Assembly: GCA_902617025.1 (NCBI GenBank)
Contig: CACMVB010000007.1
Coordinates: 1 to 62,982 of the forward strand
Reading direction: 5' to 3'
Length of the DNA stretch: 62,982 bases
From: an uncultured Pelagibacteraceae bacterium
GTDB taxonomy: Bacteria; Pseudomonadota; Alphaproteobacteria; Pelagibacterales; Pelagibacteraceae
Positions 44,085 through 51,971 of this stretch are shown here, piece by piece. How positions within the stretch are numbered: the stretch's first letter is position 1; each line of letters begins with the position of its first letter. The notes beneath the pieces are model-generated. The model made no database searches and was not told where the DNA came from. It was given only the letters and a program-made list of their open reading frames with translations. The translations under genes and the position numbers were made by a program.

Positions 44085-44843
44085 ATGATTGAAATATTAA
44101 TACTTTCTTTTATTCAGGGAGTTTCTGAATTCTTGCCTGTAAGCTCTTCGTCACATCTCATTATAATTTCTAAGTTTTTTAATTTTGAGAAACAGAGTTT
44201 ATCTATTGATGTTAGTTTACACATAGGATCTTTTATTGCTGTTGTCACTTATTTCTATCAAGATATTTTTAATTTCATAAAAAACAAAATGCTTTTTTTA
44301 AAAATTATACTTTCTTCTATTCCTGTGATGTTTGTTGGATACATATTAATCAAATCAAATTTTATTGAACAGTTAAGAAGTATTGAGGTGATAGGTTGGA
44401 CAACTTTTACCTTCGCCATTCTATTGTATGTTAGCGATAAATTAAAATCTAATAAGAACATTAAAAAAAACTTCAGTTATAAAGATGCTATCATTATAGG
44501 AATATTTCAAATTTTATCGTTAATACCAGGTGTAAGTAGAGCTGGTATTACAATTACAGCAGGAAGATTTCTTAGATACAATAGATACGATGCATCCAAA
44601 ATTTCTTTTTTGCTTTCAATTCCTACTCTTGGAGTAATTTCAATTTACGGCTTAAGTGAGATTACATCTTATGATGATTTGAGTTTTTCAATTATAAATA
44701 TAAATTCGATTGTTTTATCTTTTATTTTTTCATTAATCACAATAAAATTTTTTTTAAAATATATACAAAAATCGAGTATGGCAATATTTGTATTATACAG
44801 ATTAATTTTAGGAGGAATTTTAATTCTTTATACTTATTTATAG
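44085..44843 (+). CDS. uppP: Undecaprenyl-diphosphatase
   Basis: UppP (BacA) recycles undecaprenyl pyrophosphate to the lipid carrier used for peptidoglycan and surface glycans. The 252-residue polytopic protein has the first active-site motif SFIQGVSEFLPVSSSSHLII (about 8-27) and the second, LIPGVSRAGITITAGRF (about 147-163), with the essential Glu, Ser and Arg residues. It is a little shorter than the enterobacterial enzyme (about 273). It stands beside a cluster of sugar-transfer genes that need the same carrier. Confidence 0.95.
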   Translation: MIEILILSFIQGVSEFLPVSSSSHLIIISKFFNFEKQSLSIDVSLHIGSFIAVVTYFYQDIFNFIKNKMLFLKIILSSIPVMFVGYILIKSNFIEQLRSIEVIGWTTFTFAILLYVSDKLKSNKNIKKNFSYKDAIIIGIFQILSLIPGVSRAGITITAGRFLRYNRYDASKISFLLSIPTLGVISIYGLSEITSYDDLSFSIININSIVLSFIFSLITIKFFLKYIQKSSMAIFVLYRLILGGILILYTYL

Positions 44844-44915
44844 AATAAAAGTAAGACCTACTAATATTACTAAGATTAAAATAAAAAAAATAATTACTGC
44901 TTTTTGTAATGACAT
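44838..44915 (-). CDS. Possible 25-residue membrane peptide
   Basis: A tiny frame runs from ATG 44915 to a TAA at 44838. It encodes MSLQKAVI followed by a continuous run of Ile, Leu, Val, Phe and Gly long enough for one membrane helix. It begins 9 bases after the GT2 stop on the same strand and its end overlaps the last bases of uppP on the other strand. Position after a lipid-linked glycosyltransferase makes a helper peptide conceivable. The frame is short enough to arise by chance. Confidence 0.3.
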   Translation of the reverse strand: MSLQKAVIIFFILILVILVGLTFIL

Positions 44916-44924
44916 GTTAAATTC

Positions 44925-45638
44925 TCATTTCTTTATATTTAATAAATTCTTCTCGATAAAACAATAAATTAAAGTGAACAAGTATTTGGATCTTAGTTCT
45001 TTAATTTTAAACTTTGATTCACCTTTTTTTCTTCCCATCCAATTGATTGGAACCGTAATATAGTCATAGTTCCTTGAAATAATTTTAAGTGGTATTTCTA
45101 GAAAAACATTAAAGCTTTCTGAGATCAGAGGCATTATTTCCAACAAGGCTTTTTTAGTGTAAATTTTAAATGCATTAGTATAATCATTATATTTATTCCA
45201 AAAAATCAAACTTACAAAAAAATTAAAGATCCTGTTAAGAACTAATTTTTGTAATGGATAATCATTAACTTTTGACTCTTTCATGAATCTTGATCCTAAT
45301 ACAGCATCATATTTTTCTGTCTTTATAAGATCGAAGTATTTTATTAAGTCATTTATATCGTCAGACTGATCAGCCATCATAATAGCAATATAGTTTCCCT
45401 TAGATTCCAGAACGCCAAGGTTTATCGCGCCCCCTAAGCCTTTTTTTAAATTGTTGCAAATTCTGAAATTTTTATAACTTTGTGCCAAAGTTTCAGCCTT
45501 TAATAACGTGTCGTCAATACTAAAATCATTTATTATCAAAACCTCAAAATTTAGGTTTTTAAGGTTATCGTTAAAATAATCGAATACGCTTTTTAGATTT
45601 TCTGACTCATTTCTAACTGGTACAATTATTGACAACAT
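44925..45638 (-). CDS. Polyprenyl-phosphate glycosyltransferase (DPM1-like, GT2)
   Basis: The 237 residues begin LSIIVPVRNESENLKSVFDY and contain IINDFSIDDT, the KGLGGAINLG loop, the DxD-equivalent MMADQSDD (about 89-96) and GSRFMKES, followed by the C-terminal basic WMGRKKGESKFKIKEL. This is the pattern of dolichol/undecaprenyl-phosphate sugar transferases that make lipid-linked sugar donors. A GT-C membrane transferase that could use such a donor is encoded nearby at 47.7 kb on the other strand. The sugar is unknown. Confidence 0.87.
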   Translation of the reverse strand: MLSIIVPVRNESENLKSVFDYFNDNLKNLNFEVLIINDFSIDDTLLKAETLAQSYKNFRICNNLKKGLGGAINLGVLESKGNYIAIMMADQSDDINDLIKYFDLIKTEKYDAVLGSRFMKESKVNDYPLQKLVLNRIFNFFVSLIFWNKYNDYTNAFKIYTKKALLEIMPLISESFNVFLEIPLKIISRNYDYITVPINWMGRKKGESKFKIKELRSKYLFTLIYCFIEKNLLNIKK

Positions 45639-45681
45639 AAGTTTGTTTATTTTTTATCATTAGTAAGATATTTATTTTATA

Positions 45682-46710
45682 ATGAAAATACTTATTACAG
45701 GTGGATGTGGGTTTGTCGGTTCAAATTTAGCCATTTTTTTAAAAAAAAAAATAAAAAATTCATCGGTATTTACTCTGGACAATCTCCTGCGAAAAGGATC
45801 GATGCTTAATAAAAAAAGATTAAAAAAAAACAAGATTCATAATTTTAATTTAAACATAGAAAATTCAAAGAAAATTAAATTACTTCCCAAATTTAATTTA
45901 ATAATTGATTGTTGTGCTGAACCAGCAATAGAAGCATCTAGAAAAGATCCGTCAAGAGTTTTTAACACAAATTTAATTGGAACTTTCAATATTTTACAAA
46001 AATGTATTAAAGATAAATCTAATCTCATTTTTTTGTCCTCGAGTAGAGTTTATTCTATTCTTTCACTAAGAAAAATTGTTAAAAATTTAAATATCTCTAA
46101 ACCATTGAAAATTAAAAAAACTATTGATGAAAATTTTGAGTTAAATGCACCAAGTTCTTTATATGGATTTACAAAGTCTGCGTCTGAAAAATTGATACAA
46201 GAATTTTTTTACGAAAGAAAAAATAAGTTTATAATAAATAGATTTGGTGTAATAGCTGGGCCGTGGCAGTTTGGTAAGCAAGACCAGGGTTTTGTTCCTT
46301 TGTGGATTGCTAAGCACCTTTTGAATAAAAAAATCAATTACATTGGGTTTGGTGGAAAAGGAAACCAAGTTCGAGACGTAATCCATATAGACGATGTTTG
46401 CGAAATTATTTTTTTACAAATTAAAAAATTGAATCTTATTTACAATAATATTTTTAATATTGGTGGAGGTAAGGCTAATACGATATCACTAAGAGAACTG
46501 ACTTATAAATGCAGAGAGATAACAAAAAACGATATTACAATTGGAAAAATCTCAAAAACTTCAATTTTTGATATTCCATATTATGTTACTAATAATAATA
46601 AAATCAAAAAAATGTATAATTGGAAACCATCAAAAAATATAAATGATATTTTAAGTGATATTAAAGTTTGGTTACAAAATTATACAAACGTATTGAGTTA
46701 TTTTAAATGA
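45682..46710 (+). CDS. NAD-dependent sugar epimerase/dehydratase (extended SDR)
   Basis: The 342-residue protein starts MKILITGGCGFVGSNLAIFL (Rossmann GxxGxxG). It has FLSSSRVYS and the catalytic LYGFTKSASEKLIQ with the YxxxK pair intact (about 159-163), then the substrate region GVIAGPWQFGKQDQGFVPLW and QVRDVIHIDDV. The last features resemble CDP-paratose/tyvelose 2-epimerases (RfbE-like). The exact nucleotide sugar is not certain. The next gene, a second SDR of similar type, overlaps by 4 bases. Confidence 0.85.
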   Translation: MKILITGGCGFVGSNLAIFLKKKIKNSSVFTLDNLLRKGSMLNKKRLKKNKIHNFNLNIENSKKIKLLPKFNLIIDCCAEPAIEASRKDPSRVFNTNLIGTFNILQKCIKDKSNLIFLSSSRVYSILSLRKIVKNLNISKPLKIKKTIDENFELNAPSSLYGFTKSASEKLIQEFFYERKNKFIINRFGVIAGPWQFGKQDQGFVPLWIAKHLLNKKINYIGFGGKGNQVRDVIHIDDVCEIIFLQIKKLNLIYNNIFNIGGGKANTISLRELTYKCREITKNDITIGKISKTSIFDIPYYVTNNNKIKKMYNWKPSKNINDILSDIKVWLQNYTNVLSYFK

Positions 46711-47759
46711 GTGTAGCTTTAATTACAGGTTCGTGCGGTTTAGTGGGCTCAGAATCTGCTTTATTTTTTTCAAAAAAAGGGTTTGAAATTATAGGAATTG
46801 ATAATAATTCACGTAGATTATTTTTTGGAAAGGATGGTGATATATCATGGGTAAAGTCAAAATTAAAAAAAGAAATTAAAAATTATTACCACTTCAATAC
46901 TGATATAAGAGACTATAACTCACTAGAAAAAATTTTCAGAAAATATAAAAAAAATATCAATATTATAATTCATTCTGCTGCTCAACCGTCGCATGATTGG
47001 GCAAAGGGAAAACCTTTTATTGATTTTGATATTAATGCTAAAGCAACGCTTAATTTGTTAGAATTAACAAAAAAATATACGCCTGAATGTCCTTTTGTGT
47101 TCATGTCAACAAATAAAGTTTATGGTGATAATCCCAACAAACTTCCATTGTTAGAAAAAAAAACAAGATGGGAGATTAACCCTAAACATAAATTCTACAA
47201 AGGGATAGACGAGTCTATGAGTTTAGATAATTGCACTCACAGTTTCTTTGGAGCATCAAAAGCTTATGCTGACTTAATCGTTCAAGAATATGGAAAGAAT
47301 ATTGGTTTAAAAACATCTTGTTTTAGAGCAGGCTGTATTACAGGTCCGATGCATTCTGGTGCAAAGCTTCACGGATTTTTATCCTTTTTAGTAAAAGCAT
47401 CAATTAAGAATAAGAAATATACATTAATCGGTTATAAAGGAAAACAAGTTAGAGACAACTTGCATAGCAATGATTTAGTAAAATGTTTTTGGGAATTTTA
47501 TAAAAAACCTAGAAATGGTGAAGTTTATAATACTGGAGGTGGAAAATTTTCAAATTGTTCTATTTTAGAGGCATTAAAAATTGTTGAGGATTCGATTAAA
47601 ATTAAAATTAAAAAAAAAGTAATTAGAGAAAATAGAGTTGGAGATCACATTTGGTATGTTTCAAACATGAATAAATTTAGAAAACATTACCCAAAATGGA
47701 AGCAAATTTATTCGACAAAAAAAATAATATATGAACTTATTGAAAATTTTAAATCATAG
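46707..47759 (+). CDS. Second SDR epimerase, CDP-paratose 2-epimerase-like
   Basis: The 350-residue protein begins MSVALITGSCGLVGSESALF and has IIHSAAQPSHDWAKGKPFID (about 91-110), VFMSTNKVYGDNPNKLP, and GCITGPMHSGAKLHGFLSFL, all typical of CDP-paratose/tyvelose 2-epimerase relatives. At the catalytic site it reads SFFGASKAYADL, so Phe replaces the Tyr of YxxxK; I recall this substitution in relatives, which suggests a subfamily trait rather than damage. Overlaps the preceding SDR by 4 bases and the following membrane protein by 29. Confidence 0.83.
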   Translation: MSVALITGSCGLVGSESALFFSKKGFEIIGIDNNSRRLFFGKDGDISWVKSKLKKEIKNYYHFNTDIRDYNSLEKIFRKYKKNINIIIHSAAQPSHDWAKGKPFIDFDINAKATLNLLELTKKYTPECPFVFMSTNKVYGDNPNKLPLLEKKTRWEINPKHKFYKGIDESMSLDNCTHSFFGASKAYADLIVQEYGKNIGLKTSCFRAGCITGPMHSGAKLHGFLSFLVKASIKNKKYTLIGYKGKQVRDNLHSNDLVKCFWEFYKKPRNGEVYNTGGGKFSNCSILEALKIVEDSIKIKIKKKVIRENRVGDHIWYVSNMNKFRKHYPKWKQIYSTKKIIYELIENFKS

Positions 47760-48960
47760 ATTTTTAGAAAAAAATTTTAATTTTTATATATTAATTTTTT
47801 TATCTGGAATGATTGCGAGATCTTTCATTGCACTAAATTACGGTGATAAAGTCTTAGAAAATGAATGGAAGATTTTGGTTTATAATCTTTACAATTTTAA
47901 TTCCTTTTCAATGTTAAAATTTGACGATTTTTTTGTACCCAATCTTTGGATGCCACCAATTTACGGTTATTTTATTTATTTACATGCCCTTATATTTGGA
48001 ATTGAGGAGAAACTAGTAATTAGCGTTATTATTTCTCAGATAATCATTTCTTCATTAACAACTTTAGTTTTTTTTAATATTGTCACATTTTTTTTTAAAA
48101 GGGAAATATCAATTTTAGGTTCAATAATATTTTGTTTTTTTCCAATAATAGTATTTTCTTCAAGTCAAATTTCATCTGTTACAATATATTTATTTTTATT
48201 TTTGTTATTTATTTTTTTTCTTTTAAAATTAACAAAAAATAAGTCTAATCTTTTAATCTTATCAATTGGAATTATTTCAGGAATATTAGTCCTAACAAGA
48301 AGAGATTTTATCTTAATTTATTTTTTTTCATTAATATATTTTTTTCTTTTCTTTAGGGTGAACTGGAAAAAAATCCTTCTCACAACATTAGTTTTGGCCA
48401 TTACTATATCTCCATACTTAATACGAAATTATATTGCTTTTGATAAAATTATTCTTCATTCAGGTTTTGGATTTAATGTTTGGAAAGCCTATAACCCAAA
48501 AGCTAAAGTCGAAGGATATTACATAGAGGAAGAGGAATTAATATCAAAAATCGAAAATGTAAAAAAAGATGTAAACTATAGAATCAATCAAGATAAAATT
48601 TATCTTAAAGAGGCTAAAAAATATATTCTGGATGATCCTATAAAATATTTTAAACTTTTTTTAAAACGAATATATTCATTTTATTTTTTAGACTTGAATT
48701 CTACATATGAAAATTATTATAATTTAATTCATACACTACCAAATTTACTTTTATCAATTTTATCCATCTTGGGTTTAATAGTATGTAAGAAAAAGAATTT
48801 AAGCTTGAATTATTTAATATTAATAATGTTTGTAATTTTATTTATCTACTCTTTTTTCGCCATTCTACCAAGATATAAAATTTACATTATTCCTTTTCAG
48901 ATAATTTTAAGCCTTTCTTTCTTAGATTTTTTATTAAAAAAATTAATTAAAAAGAATTAA
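47731..48960 (+). CDS. Polytopic glycosyltransferase-like membrane protein (GT-C/PMT type)
   Basis: The 409-residue protein has about ten hydrophobic helices. The first loop holds the acidic, aromatic segment LKFDDFFVPNLWMPPIYGYF, followed by the GIISGILVLTRRDF helix pair (about 179-192) and a soluble loop (about 250-310) before the last helices. This is the layout of ArnT/PMT-type transferases that use polyprenyl-phosphate sugars. It is rich in Phe and Ile. It starts inside the preceding epimerase gene (29-base overlap). Assignment is to the fold class, not to a reaction. Confidence 0.75.
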   Translation: MNLLKILNHRFLEKNFNFYILIFLSGMIARSFIALNYGDKVLENEWKILVYNLYNFNSFSMLKFDDFFVPNLWMPPIYGYFIYLHALIFGIEEKLVISVIISQIIISSLTTLVFFNIVTFFFKREISILGSIIFCFFPIIVFSSSQISSVTIYLFLFLLFIFFLLKLTKNKSNLLILSIGIISGILVLTRRDFILIYFFSLIYFFLFFRVNWKKILLTTLVLAITISPYLIRNYIAFDKIILHSGFGFNVWKAYNPKAKVEGYYIEEEELISKIENVKKDVNYRINQDKIYLKEAKKYILDDPIKYFKLFLKRIYSFYFLDLNSTYENYYNLIHTLPNLLLSILSILGLIVCKKKNLSLNYLILIMFVILFIYSFFAILPRYKIYIIPFQIILSLSFLDFLLKKLIKKN

Positions 48961-49734
48961 TTGACCGCTTTGTGTTTGAAATCCTTTATCAAGATCAATT
49001 TTCAAATCTTTTACAGCCTTTTTTACTCCCTCTTGGTTAATAAAATTAAAATCATCAAATAATATTATAGCATTTTTTTCTAATCTTTCTTTTACAAAAT
49101 TAAAACTATCTAAAGTAGATTGATACAAATCATAGTCTAGATGCACGAAACTAAATTTTAAGTTAGAAATTTTTGCCATACATTCTTTATTTAAATTTGG
49201 AAAATAACCTACAATTGTTTCTAGATTTGAATTTTTTTTCGAAAGAATTTCATTAAGATTTTTAGTCATTTGAACATGATCAAAATCTTTAAATCGAGTT
49301 TGCTTTGTAAAAGGCCTATATGAGCCTTGGTAGTGTTCATCAAATTTTGAGATATTTTCTTTAATTTCTTTTGCATGAAATCCGAAGCTATCTACAGAAA
49401 ATATTTGAGAGTCCTTTTTGATAAATTTAGAAATTGTTGTTAATGTTGCTCCACGATCTGTACCAAATTCAATAATATTAGTATGCATACCCTCAAAAAT
49501 TTTATTATGCAGCTTGACAAGTTGATAAACAGTAAAGTTTCTCTCTTTATCTTGCGAGGATTGGTTTTTTATATTTTTCCAATTTATTCTAAAATCTTCG
49601 GGATAATCTATTACAACGCTTAAAAAGTATTTTCTTAAACCCCAAAAAAAATTTGAAAGTTGCAAAATTATTTTCATTTGCATATTTTCACTAAATAATC
49701 TTCCTACTAATGATCTTATTTTTTTAAATACCAT
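48943..49734 (-). CDS. TylF-type O-methyltransferase / class I SAM-dependent methyltransferase
   Basis: The 263-residue protein has the SAM-binding strand NIIEFGTDRGATLTTISKF (about 86-104), FSVDSFGFHAK, and the TylF-family FVHLDYDLYQSTLDSFNF followed by IILFDDFNF (metal-binding Asp pair). Relatives methylate sugar hydroxyls. ATG 49734 is the true start; the longer frame reads backward through the tRNA-Arg and is spurious. It converges on the GT-C gene (18-base overlap) and sits 11 bases downstream of the tRNA. Confidence 0.83.
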   Translation of the reverse strand: MVFKKIRSLVGRLFSENMQMKIILQLSNFFWGLRKYFLSVVIDYPEDFRINWKNIKNQSSQDKERNFTVYQLVKLHNKIFEGMHTNIIEFGTDRGATLTTISKFIKKDSQIFSVDSFGFHAKEIKENISKFDEHYQGSYRPFTKQTRFKDFDHVQMTKNLNEILSKKNSNLETIVGYFPNLNKECMAKISNLKFSFVHLDYDLYQSTLDSFNFVKERLEKNAIILFDDFNFINQEGVKKAVKDLKIDLDKGFQTQSGQLILFN

Positions 49735-49745
49735 AATTAATCGCC

Positions 49746-49822
49746 TGGTGCGCCTGCAAGGATTTGAACCCTGAACCTCCTGGTCCGTAGCCAAGCGCTC
49801 TATCCAGTTGAGCTACAGGCGC
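49746..49822 (-). tRNA. tRNA-Arg (ACG anticodon)
   Basis: On the minus strand the gene opens GCGCCTG and closes CAGGCGC-A-CCA, giving a perfect seven-pair acceptor stem with encoded CCA. The D arm contains AGCTCAACTGGATAGAGC, the anticodon loop reads GGCTACGGACC (ACG, read as ICG for arginine CGN), and the T arm has GGTTCAAATCC. It bounds the surface-sugar gene group on its right side. Confidence 0.97.
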
Positions 49823-49884
49823 CTAGACATGAATTATCAAAGAAAGTATTGTATTTAAAGGTTAAACATCTATATAATTAAGAA

Positions 49885-51077: not shown

Positions 51078-51971
51078 ATGGAACTTCCTATTGTTAATCA
51101 TCCAGATTATGTTGCAAAAATAAATGATGATAACAAATTTCCTATAAAGAAATTTGGTGCCTTAGCAAATCATCTCTTGGAAGCTAAAGTGGTTCAGAAA
51201 TTTTATATTCCTAAAGAATGTTCAGTTGAAACAATGAAAACTTCTCATTCATTAAAATATATAAATGATATTAAGAATAAGACCCTAGATATTCAAGCTC
51301 AGAAAAAAATTGGTTTCCCAATCAATGATAGCGTTGTAAGGAGATCTTTTGTTGCTACCGGAGGGACTGTGCTGGCTAGTAAACTTGCTTTAGAGTCTAG
51401 GCTTGCTTGTAATACCGCTGGCGGTAGTCATCATGCTACTTTTGATTATGGAGCTGGATATTGCGTTTTTAATGATACTGCTGTTGCGGCCAATTATTTA
51501 AAAAACAAGGGGTATGCAAAAAAGATACTAATATTAGATTTAGACGTCCATCAAGGCAATGGAAATTCAGAAATATTTCAAAACGATAAAGATGTTTTTA
51601 CTTTTAGTATGCATTGTGCTTCAAATTATCCTGCAAAAAAATCTAAAAGCGATATTGATATAGAGCTTAAAGACAATATGGAAGATAATGAGTACTTAAA
51701 TGTTTTAAATAAAAATCTGAAGGAGCTAAATTATAACACTTATGATTTTGTTTTCTATATTGCAGGGGTTGATATTCATCATGAAGATAGACTTGGTAAA
51801 CTAAAAATCTCTGACGGGGGCATTAATAAAAGAGATCAAATAGTTATTGAAAACTTTTATTCTAAAAATATTCCTTTATGCGGTGTTCTTGGAGGAGGTT
51901 ATAACAAAAGTTTTCAAAAGCTTATTGAACTTCATTCAATGTTGCACAAAAATTGTGCAGAATATTTCTGA
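51078..51971 (+). CDS. Histone-deacetylase-family hydrolase
   Basis: The 297 residues form an arginase/HDAC-fold zinc deacetylase. The tandem histidines are in GGSHHATFDYGAGYCVFND (about 114-132), the zinc ligands in LDLDVHQGNG (about 154-163) and AGVDIHHEDRLG (Asp), and the C-terminal GVLGGGYNK glycine loop is present. Bacterial members act on acetyl-lysine, acetylpolyamines or similar; AcuC reverses acetyl-CoA synthetase acetylation. Linkage to a thiolase and an acyl-CoA synthetase makes the last idea attractive but unproven. Confidence 0.9.
   Translation: MELPIVNHPDYVAKINDDNKFPIKKFGALANHLLEAKVVQKFYIPKECSVETMKTSHSLKYINDIKNKTLDIQAQKKIGFPINDSVVRRSFVATGGTVLASKLALESRLACNTAGGSHHATFDYGAGYCVFNDTAVAANYLKNKGYAKKILILDLDVHQGNGNSEIFQNDKDVFTFSMHCASNYPAKKSKSDIDIELKDNMEDNEYLNVLNKNLKELNYNTYDFVFYIAGVDIHHEDRLGKLKISDGGINKRDQIVIENFYSKNIPLCGVLGGGYNKSFQKLIELHSMLHKNCAEYF

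Follow-up and report, generated by a model that had tools for sequence, protein, structure and literature searches.

A 62,982-nt contig (C7, here called the window) of an uncultured Pelagibacteraceae bacterium, whose SAR11 genome of 1.04 Mb in 16 contigs is 98.8% complete, carries a cassette of five genes at 44925-49734, bounded by uppP on one side and a tRNA-Arg gene on the other (Table 1). The genes are predicted to encode a GT2 glycosyltransferase, probably of the dolichol-phosphate mannose synthase (DPMS) type, two short-chain dehydrogenases/reductases (SDR1 and SDR2), a GT-C membrane glycosyltransferase and a TylF-like methyltransferase. Checks of the open reading frames (ORFs), with Pfam, ARAGORN and Rfam, placed all five ORFs, uppP and the tRNA where an initial annotation of this DNA had put them. 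Two details of that layout changed: the likeliest start codon of the methyltransferase is the ATG at 49734, which lies 11 nt beyond the tRNA and not within it, and a small ORF of 25 amino acids beside uppP had been overlooked. The cassette had also been called extremely rich in A/T and in Lys and Ile, which overstates its composition. The GC content is low (25.2%, vs 30.2% in the rest of the window), with equally low values in 11 of 582 sliding windows, and the Lys+Ile content of the five proteins (19.8-27.2%) lies inside the range of the other window genes (mean 21.3, standard deviation 4.3).

Table 1. The uppP/tRNA-Arg slot of the window and the genes in and around it
Feature	Position	Strand	Evidence
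uppP/bacA, undecaprenyl-diphosphate phosphatase; bounds the slot on the left and is not cargo	44085..44843	+	Pfam BacA, 215 bits
Small conserved ORF of 25 aa (many relatives have 31 aa) with a single hydrophobic stretch; between slot and uppP	44838..44915	-	
GT2, putative DPMS-type polyprenyl-phosphate sugar synthase	44925..45638	-	PF00535 Glycos_transf_2, 86 bits
SDR1, epimerase-type SDR	45682..46710	+	Pfam Epimerase; YxxxK kept; SSR vs TNK of TyvE
SDR2, epimerase-type SDR	46707..47759	+	Pfam Epimerase; TNK and catalytic Lys kept; Phe (F181) for catalytic Tyr
GT-C membrane glycosyltransferase, PMT_2 type	47731..48960	+	PMT_2, 30.8 bits (cut-off 26.1); predicted fold
TylF-like methyltransferase	48943..49734	-	Pfam TylF, 27.3 bits (cut-off 23)
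tRNA-Arg(ACG); right boundary, 3' end toward the slot	49746..49822	-	ARAGORN and Rfam

The gene uppP was searched for in 61 genomes and then in 148 genomes of the family, and the stretches downstream of it were annotated; congeners without uppP would escape, since the sites were located via this gene. The first set of 36 congeners included 26 with uppP, one of them on a contig that ended inside the gene, which left 25 readable sites. The second set comprised all 33 further congeners in which uppP was found, for a total of 58. Thirty-five of these sites were empty and 23 were occupied, and only two congeners (G077 and G346) had the five-gene layout of the window. The locus is therefore variable, as had been suspected, rather than a set of the same five genes kept in order across the relatives.

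Fifteen sites of the first set were empty, with 87-169 bp separating uppP from tRNA-Arg, while seven contained GT2(-) SDR1(+) SDR2(+) GT-C(-), two contained only a GT-C gene, and one (in G020) contained another ORF, which encodes a Wzy_C protein. In the second set there were 20 empty sites, five complete four-gene sets, three sets cut by contig ends, one four-gene set with an additional ORF of 231 amino acids, two five-gene sets, and two sites with a different cassette. Across both sets, GT2-SDR1-SDR2 was found in 15 of the 58 sites, 12 of them complete with GT-C(-) and three cut by contig ends (two within GT-C and one before it), and a GT-C on the opposite strand was seen in 14. Other sets were found at six sites: one with the four genes and the 231-aa ORF, which belongs to the FkbM domain family of methyltransferases, two with GT-C only, two with a DprE1-like gene, GT2 and GT-C, and one with Wzy_C. 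A GT-C of the window's family was present in 21 of the 23 occupied sites; one of the other two was cut before GT-C and one had none. The right-hand part of the four-gene set, with the 231-aa ORF, was also found in G032, a genome in which uppP was not found.

A similar range of states was found in genus g9, for which 11 of the 12 genomes with uppP were covered (all except G341). Four had SDR2 with an ORF of 215 to 250 amino acids (the 215-aa ORF of one of them is a glutamine amidotransferase), five were empty, one was cut, and G247 (locus L117) had the full module and a further ORF at the same site. The uppP gene of this last genome, Pelagibacteraceae AG-426-I15, is split into two ORFs (L117:3375-4143). 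uppP did not adjoin tRNA-Arg in 22 genomes of eight other genera.

Comparison of the occupied sites showed that the parts of the cassette are not equally well conserved. The median protein identity between the window and the occupied congeners of the first set was 90% for gltD, 81% for thiolase, 77% for SDR2, 72% for GT2, 70% for SDR1, 61% for uppP and 35% for GT-C, and GT-C identity among those congeners themselves was 47%. In other words, the sugar-making half of the cassette is conserved (70-77% identity) and GT-C is not. The window's GT-C was more similar (53-63% identity) to the GT-Cs of G077, G346 and G292, each of which is encoded beside a convergent TylF-like gene (73-76%). In G292 this pair is on a different contig from uppP, which suggests that GT-C and TylF travel together. 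Weak matches to TylF were present in 13 other genomes of the 61 searched. With the sugar half kept and the transferase and methyltransferase swapped, the main differences between strains would lie in the target of the sugar and in its cap.

The flanking genes were identified with NCBIfam as gltB, gltD, thiolase, acetoacetyl-CoA ligase and aceE; a further gene at 51078-51971, termed histone deacetylase (HDAC)-like from its sequence only, had no NCBIfam match. A tree was inferred by a 'quick' method from gltD, thiolase, the HDAC-like gene, acetoacetyl-CoA ligase and aceE, with 32 rows, 7 of which were under half filled. Presence of the module was scattered on this tree, requiring 11 changes; 364 of 500 shuffles needed no more than that. 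The row nearest the window, L067, has a four-gene set with GT-C reversed and without the methyltransferase, and L118 pairs with congener L089. One loss is recorded in the DNA itself. Between L069, which has the full module, and L070 (genome G010), which has GT-C only, the flanks of the missing block are 93.4% and 90.6% identical in DNA, and L070 has the terminal codons of GT2 and SDR2 joined at the junction. Because the tails of both genes are retained at the joint, this is the scar of a deletion and not the site of an insertion.

At the left edge, uppP had been considered part of the set as the supplier of its lipid carrier. However, it was present in 77 of 81 near-complete genomes of the family, the majority of which, among those examined, lack the cassette, and its presence at the congener sites is by design because the sites were located via uppP. 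A DPMS-type GT2 is expected to yield a lipid monophosphate, for which no UppP would be needed, so uppP is better treated as a boundary. A scan of 93 loci found the small ORF, (M..)SLQKSVIIFF..., beside uppP at 62: in 54 of the 59 congener sites (the window among them), in 8 of the 10 g9 sites and in none of the 22 sites of other genera, with the remaining loci unreadable. Its pN/pS (ratio of nonsynonymous to synonymous polymorphism) was 0.41 over 61 loci, and differences at codon positions 1, 2 and 3 were 0.435, 0.074 and 0.553, with position 2 nearly fixed. A wider scan of other genera recovered the ORF in 9 of 14 loci, directly after tRNA-Arg in eight and after tRNA-Arg and tRNA-Lys in one. 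The slot has tRNA-Arg on one side and, on the other, this small ORF on the tRNA's strand, and minus-strand cargo may therefore be read from the tRNA promoter. tRNA-Arg and thiolase enclose a second slot (in the window, 49823-49884; for example L067:8389-9705), where an ORF of about 430-456 amino acids was present in 36 of 53 readable congener sites, as judged by position or blastp. The one such ORF tested against Pfam is Wzy_C (O-antigen ligase family); the window and the five-gene relative L301 do not have it.

The gene families in the cassette are best read as a set for decoration with a lipid-linked sugar, as the initial annotation had proposed. The best solved structure for GT2 was a DPMS (5mlz, 78.9 bits; the next scored 33.6), which points to a DPMS-like polyprenyl-phosphate sugar synthase. 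GT-C was modeled with AlphaFold from 8 sequences, with a predicted local distance difference test score (pLDDT) of 77.5 and a predicted template modeling score (pTM) of 0.81. The top Foldseek rows for this model were oligosaccharyltransferases, ArnT, ALG9 and other GT-C enzymes, although the best E value was 0.0016 and none was under 0.001, and VIA gave Z 22.5 to AglB (3waj) and 21.8 to ArnT (5f15). These comparisons support a GT-C fold for the predicted structure of the membrane transferase. A phage source of the methyltransferase was confirmed for 0 of 4 pattern matches in viral contigs, and no match was found in phage records.

The two SDRs had been described as similar to CDP-paratose epimerases, and their nearest solved structures are indeed cytidine diphosphate (CDP)-tyvelose 2-epimerases (1orr and 9rl0), but residues diagnostic of those enzymes are missing in both. 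CDP-tyvelose 2-epimerase (RfbE/TyvE) has the catalytic triad Thr124-Tyr164-Lys168 and a TNK segment (PMC13098431), and Trp207, Trp210 and Phe211 are named for CDP binding (PMC7851689). SDR2 aligned with 1orr (TyvE) and 9rl0 over most of its length and retains the TNK segment (Thr, Asn, Lys) and the catalytic Lys, with Phe at the position of Tyr164. In all 31 SDR1 sequences the Tyr and Lys are retained, but TNK is replaced by SSR or TSR. The CDP-binding positions, as read from the alignments, are F, L and W in SDR1 and F, F and L in SDR2. With no Tyr164 in SDR2, no TNK in SDR1 and the CDP-binding Trp residues absent in both, neither protein merits the name of a CDP-tyvelose epimerase. The suggestion of a deoxysugar as the product is not supported either, as the cassette contains no deoxysugar gene and both SDRs are without these residues. 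A search of the bacterium's own genome for the glucose-1-phosphate cytidylyltransferase of the paratose route gave only matches below the cut-off, the best on contig C6.

A genome scan for SDR2 was examined at the best 80 of 561 confirmed places, and these loci are the basis of the genome counts that follow. Six of the 80 had no SDR2 ORF of the required score. All 74 full SDR2s, 14 from SAR11 and 60 from other organisms, had Phe in place of the catalytic Tyr, and these proteins form a subfamily that spans several phyla. SDR2 homologues on viral contigs (L190-L269) had Phe in 78 of 80 and Leu in two, and SDR1 was on the same locus in two of the 80. SDR1 was within three ORFs of SDR2 in 17 of the 66 non-SAR11 loci, and 11 of the 66 had a gene triad of SDR1, this type of GT2 and SDR2; GT2 scores at these loci separated cleanly (177-237 bits vs 22-53). 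By record title, the hosts of the triad were Bacteroidota, Nitrospirae, Deltaproteobacteria, Oligoflexia, Gammaproteobacteria, Moraniibacteriota and an unplaced proteobacterium. That SDR2 is often without a nearby SDR1 tells against an obligate pair everywhere.

The different cassette, found in G128 and G351, contains a flavin adenine dinucleotide (FAD) oxidase, a GT2 and a GT-C of the window's family (33-34% identical to the window's GT-C; in G351 its PMT_2 score of 22.6 bits is below the cut-off). The nearest solved structures of the G351 oxidase are DprE1, and DprE1 was the best NCBIfam model for both oxidases, with scores far below the cut-off (162.7 and 147.3 of 500). G128 also has an SDR without a specific solved relative, which matches many SDR models including DprE2 (51 of 250). 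This cassette thus resembles the DprE1/DprE2 system for lipid-linked pentose epimerization, at a level far below the NCBIfam cut-offs, and it differs from the window, where no DprE1-like gene is present. DprE1 is named for its decaprenyl-phosphate ribose substrate, so both types of cassette appear to point to a polyprenyl-phosphate sugar pathway that ends in a GT-C enzyme. As a tentative extension, SDR1 and SDR2 could be one enzyme pair that inverts a sugar center, possibly on the lipid-linked sugar as DprE1 and DprE2 do; this would be an uncharacterized kind of epimerase, swapped by SAR11 strains with a DprE1-like system at one site.

The locus at uppP/tRNA-Arg is real, variable and compact, and it most likely serves a surface sugar. 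In the model we favor, with a probability of roughly 0.7, it is a small hotspot for insertion and replacement of interchangeable lipid-linked sugar cassettes. SDR1 and SDR2 would make a nucleotide sugar, and GT2, judging from its similarity to DPMS, would move the sugar onto polyprenyl phosphate at the inner face of the membrane. A flippase, for which the GtrA-type search gave no candidate, would turn the lipid-linked sugar over, GT-C would transfer the sugar on the outside to a glycan, lipid or protein, and the TylF-like enzyme would methylate or cap it. Cassettes would be gained and lost through recombination in the conserved flanks and through deletion, the latter observed once. The gene order, its variation and the deletion scar are observations; the enzyme activities, the position of the sugar at the surface and the way in which cassettes are exchanged are deduced.

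Several results weigh against this model. The Pfam scores for PMT_2 and TylF are weak, though above the cut-offs, and the absence of the catalytic Tyr leaves the role of SDR2 uncertain. A GtrA-type flippase (PF04138) was not found in the bacterium's own genome, at 98.8% completeness; matches were found in 4 of the 61 genomes. When 10 neighbors of the triad were scanned at 8 of the 11 other-phylum loci, PMT_2 was found in 2, one just under the cut-off. The GT-C-only sites indicate that GT-C is able to persist without the sugar half. The empty state required 8 changes on the tree, as few as in 19 of 500 shuffles, and the empty sites are therefore somewhat clustered.

It was also considered whether the cassette is a mobile element targeted to the tRNA, that is, an integrase-type island inserted in the 3' end of tRNA-Arg. 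The cargo does abut the 3' end, with a gap of 11 nt in the window vs 75 and 79 nt in two other five-gene sites, and a prophage in tRNA-Val has been reported for another SAR11 genome (PMC7542561). The T-stem of the window's tRNA-Arg has a compensated pair change, A-U for U-A, found in no congener examined; the same pair occurs in the otherwise different tRNA-Arg of genus g9, and may be an ordinary compensated change. Repeats of the tRNA 3' end, which the initial annotation had suggested looking for, were not detected: with up to 3 mismatches allowed, the window has a single copy of a 20-base stretch from the 3' end, and in the bacterium's own genome the matches besides the gene were a 78% identical full-length tRNA-like sequence and two of 24-26 bases to the 5' end. 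No integrase was found among the genes at the site in the window, either tRNA 3' end had 0 exact matches in viral contigs, and no repeat or viral match accounted for the T-stem change. Such an insertion is very improbable.

Repeated loss of an old core module, almost or entirely without horizontal exchange, would fit the deletion scar and the full module at the same site in G247, a member of another genus. Against such a history, which we regard as unlikely, the nearest relative, L067, does not match the window in the GT-C/TylF pair or in its orientation, a similar pair lies in another island of a g9 genome (L277), and unrelated DprE1-like cassettes occupy the same slot. The sugar could also go to a protein or to an inner glycan, and not to an exposed O-chain, in which case the variation would be unrelated to phages. 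The GT-C fold does include protein glycosyltransferases, but this kind of slot-like variability is typical of exposed glycans (PMC4033161) and a Wzy_C-type ORF lies across the tRNA in the 36 congeners described above, so a hidden target seems doubtful.

Lipid-linked decoration by ArnC/ArnT and by GtrABC uses a polyprenyl-phosphate GT2 together with a GT-C enzyme. The cassette has the same two types of transferase, but it has no Arn sugar genes, and its own genome has no GtrA match. At the level of the locus, exchange of surface islands by homologous recombination has been proposed for aquatic bacteria (Lopez-Perez 2014, PMC4033161). The slot resembles the replacement flexible genomic islands of that report in its fixed flanks, its exchange of predicted surface-glycan genes at one site, and the absence of an integrase at the site. 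It differs in having one to five genes, in being often empty, and in the swapping of parts instead of a whole cluster. In SAR11, the hypervariable region HVR2 spans 48 kb between the 23S and 5S genes, and HVR4, which has tRNA genes on its flanks, is associated with transport and secretion (Wilhelm 2007, PMC2217521). Variability of surface-glycan genes is shared with HVR2, which is much larger than the 5 kb slot between uppP and tRNA-Arg. The locus is thus of a known kind, a flexible surface-glycan island; its modular swapping, its two alternative lipid-sugar systems and the subfamily of SDRs lacking Tyr are new. Among the literature matches listed, nothing was found on the uppP/tRNA-Arg slot, an SDR without Tyr or the small ORF, and no title on SAR11 phage integration named a tRNA-Arg site.

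With its small size, its clear empty state, two alternative sugar systems and an exchanged transferase, the slot offers natural, nearly paired strains in which one surface sugar could be probed, for example for a role in the adsorption of phages. The subfamily of SDRs without Tyr, taken together with SDR1 and GT2, makes a well-defined target for cloning, for example from Chitinophaga sp. YR573 (L124).

Homologues of the cassette were also seen away from uppP. In the complete SAR11-family genome G061, homologues of SDR2-SDR1-GT2-GTC lie between tRNA-Met and tRNA-Val (L292:5101-9103), with one stop codon in the GT-C match, and in another SAR11 genome an SDR1-SDR2 stretch stops a few bases short of tRNA-Ser (L169:4979-7140). 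Downstream of the slot in the window, a polysaccharide lyase gene (PF14099, 52147-52998) lies between the HDAC-like gene and acetoacetyl-CoA ligase; among the annotated relatives it is present in L069, L303 and L314.

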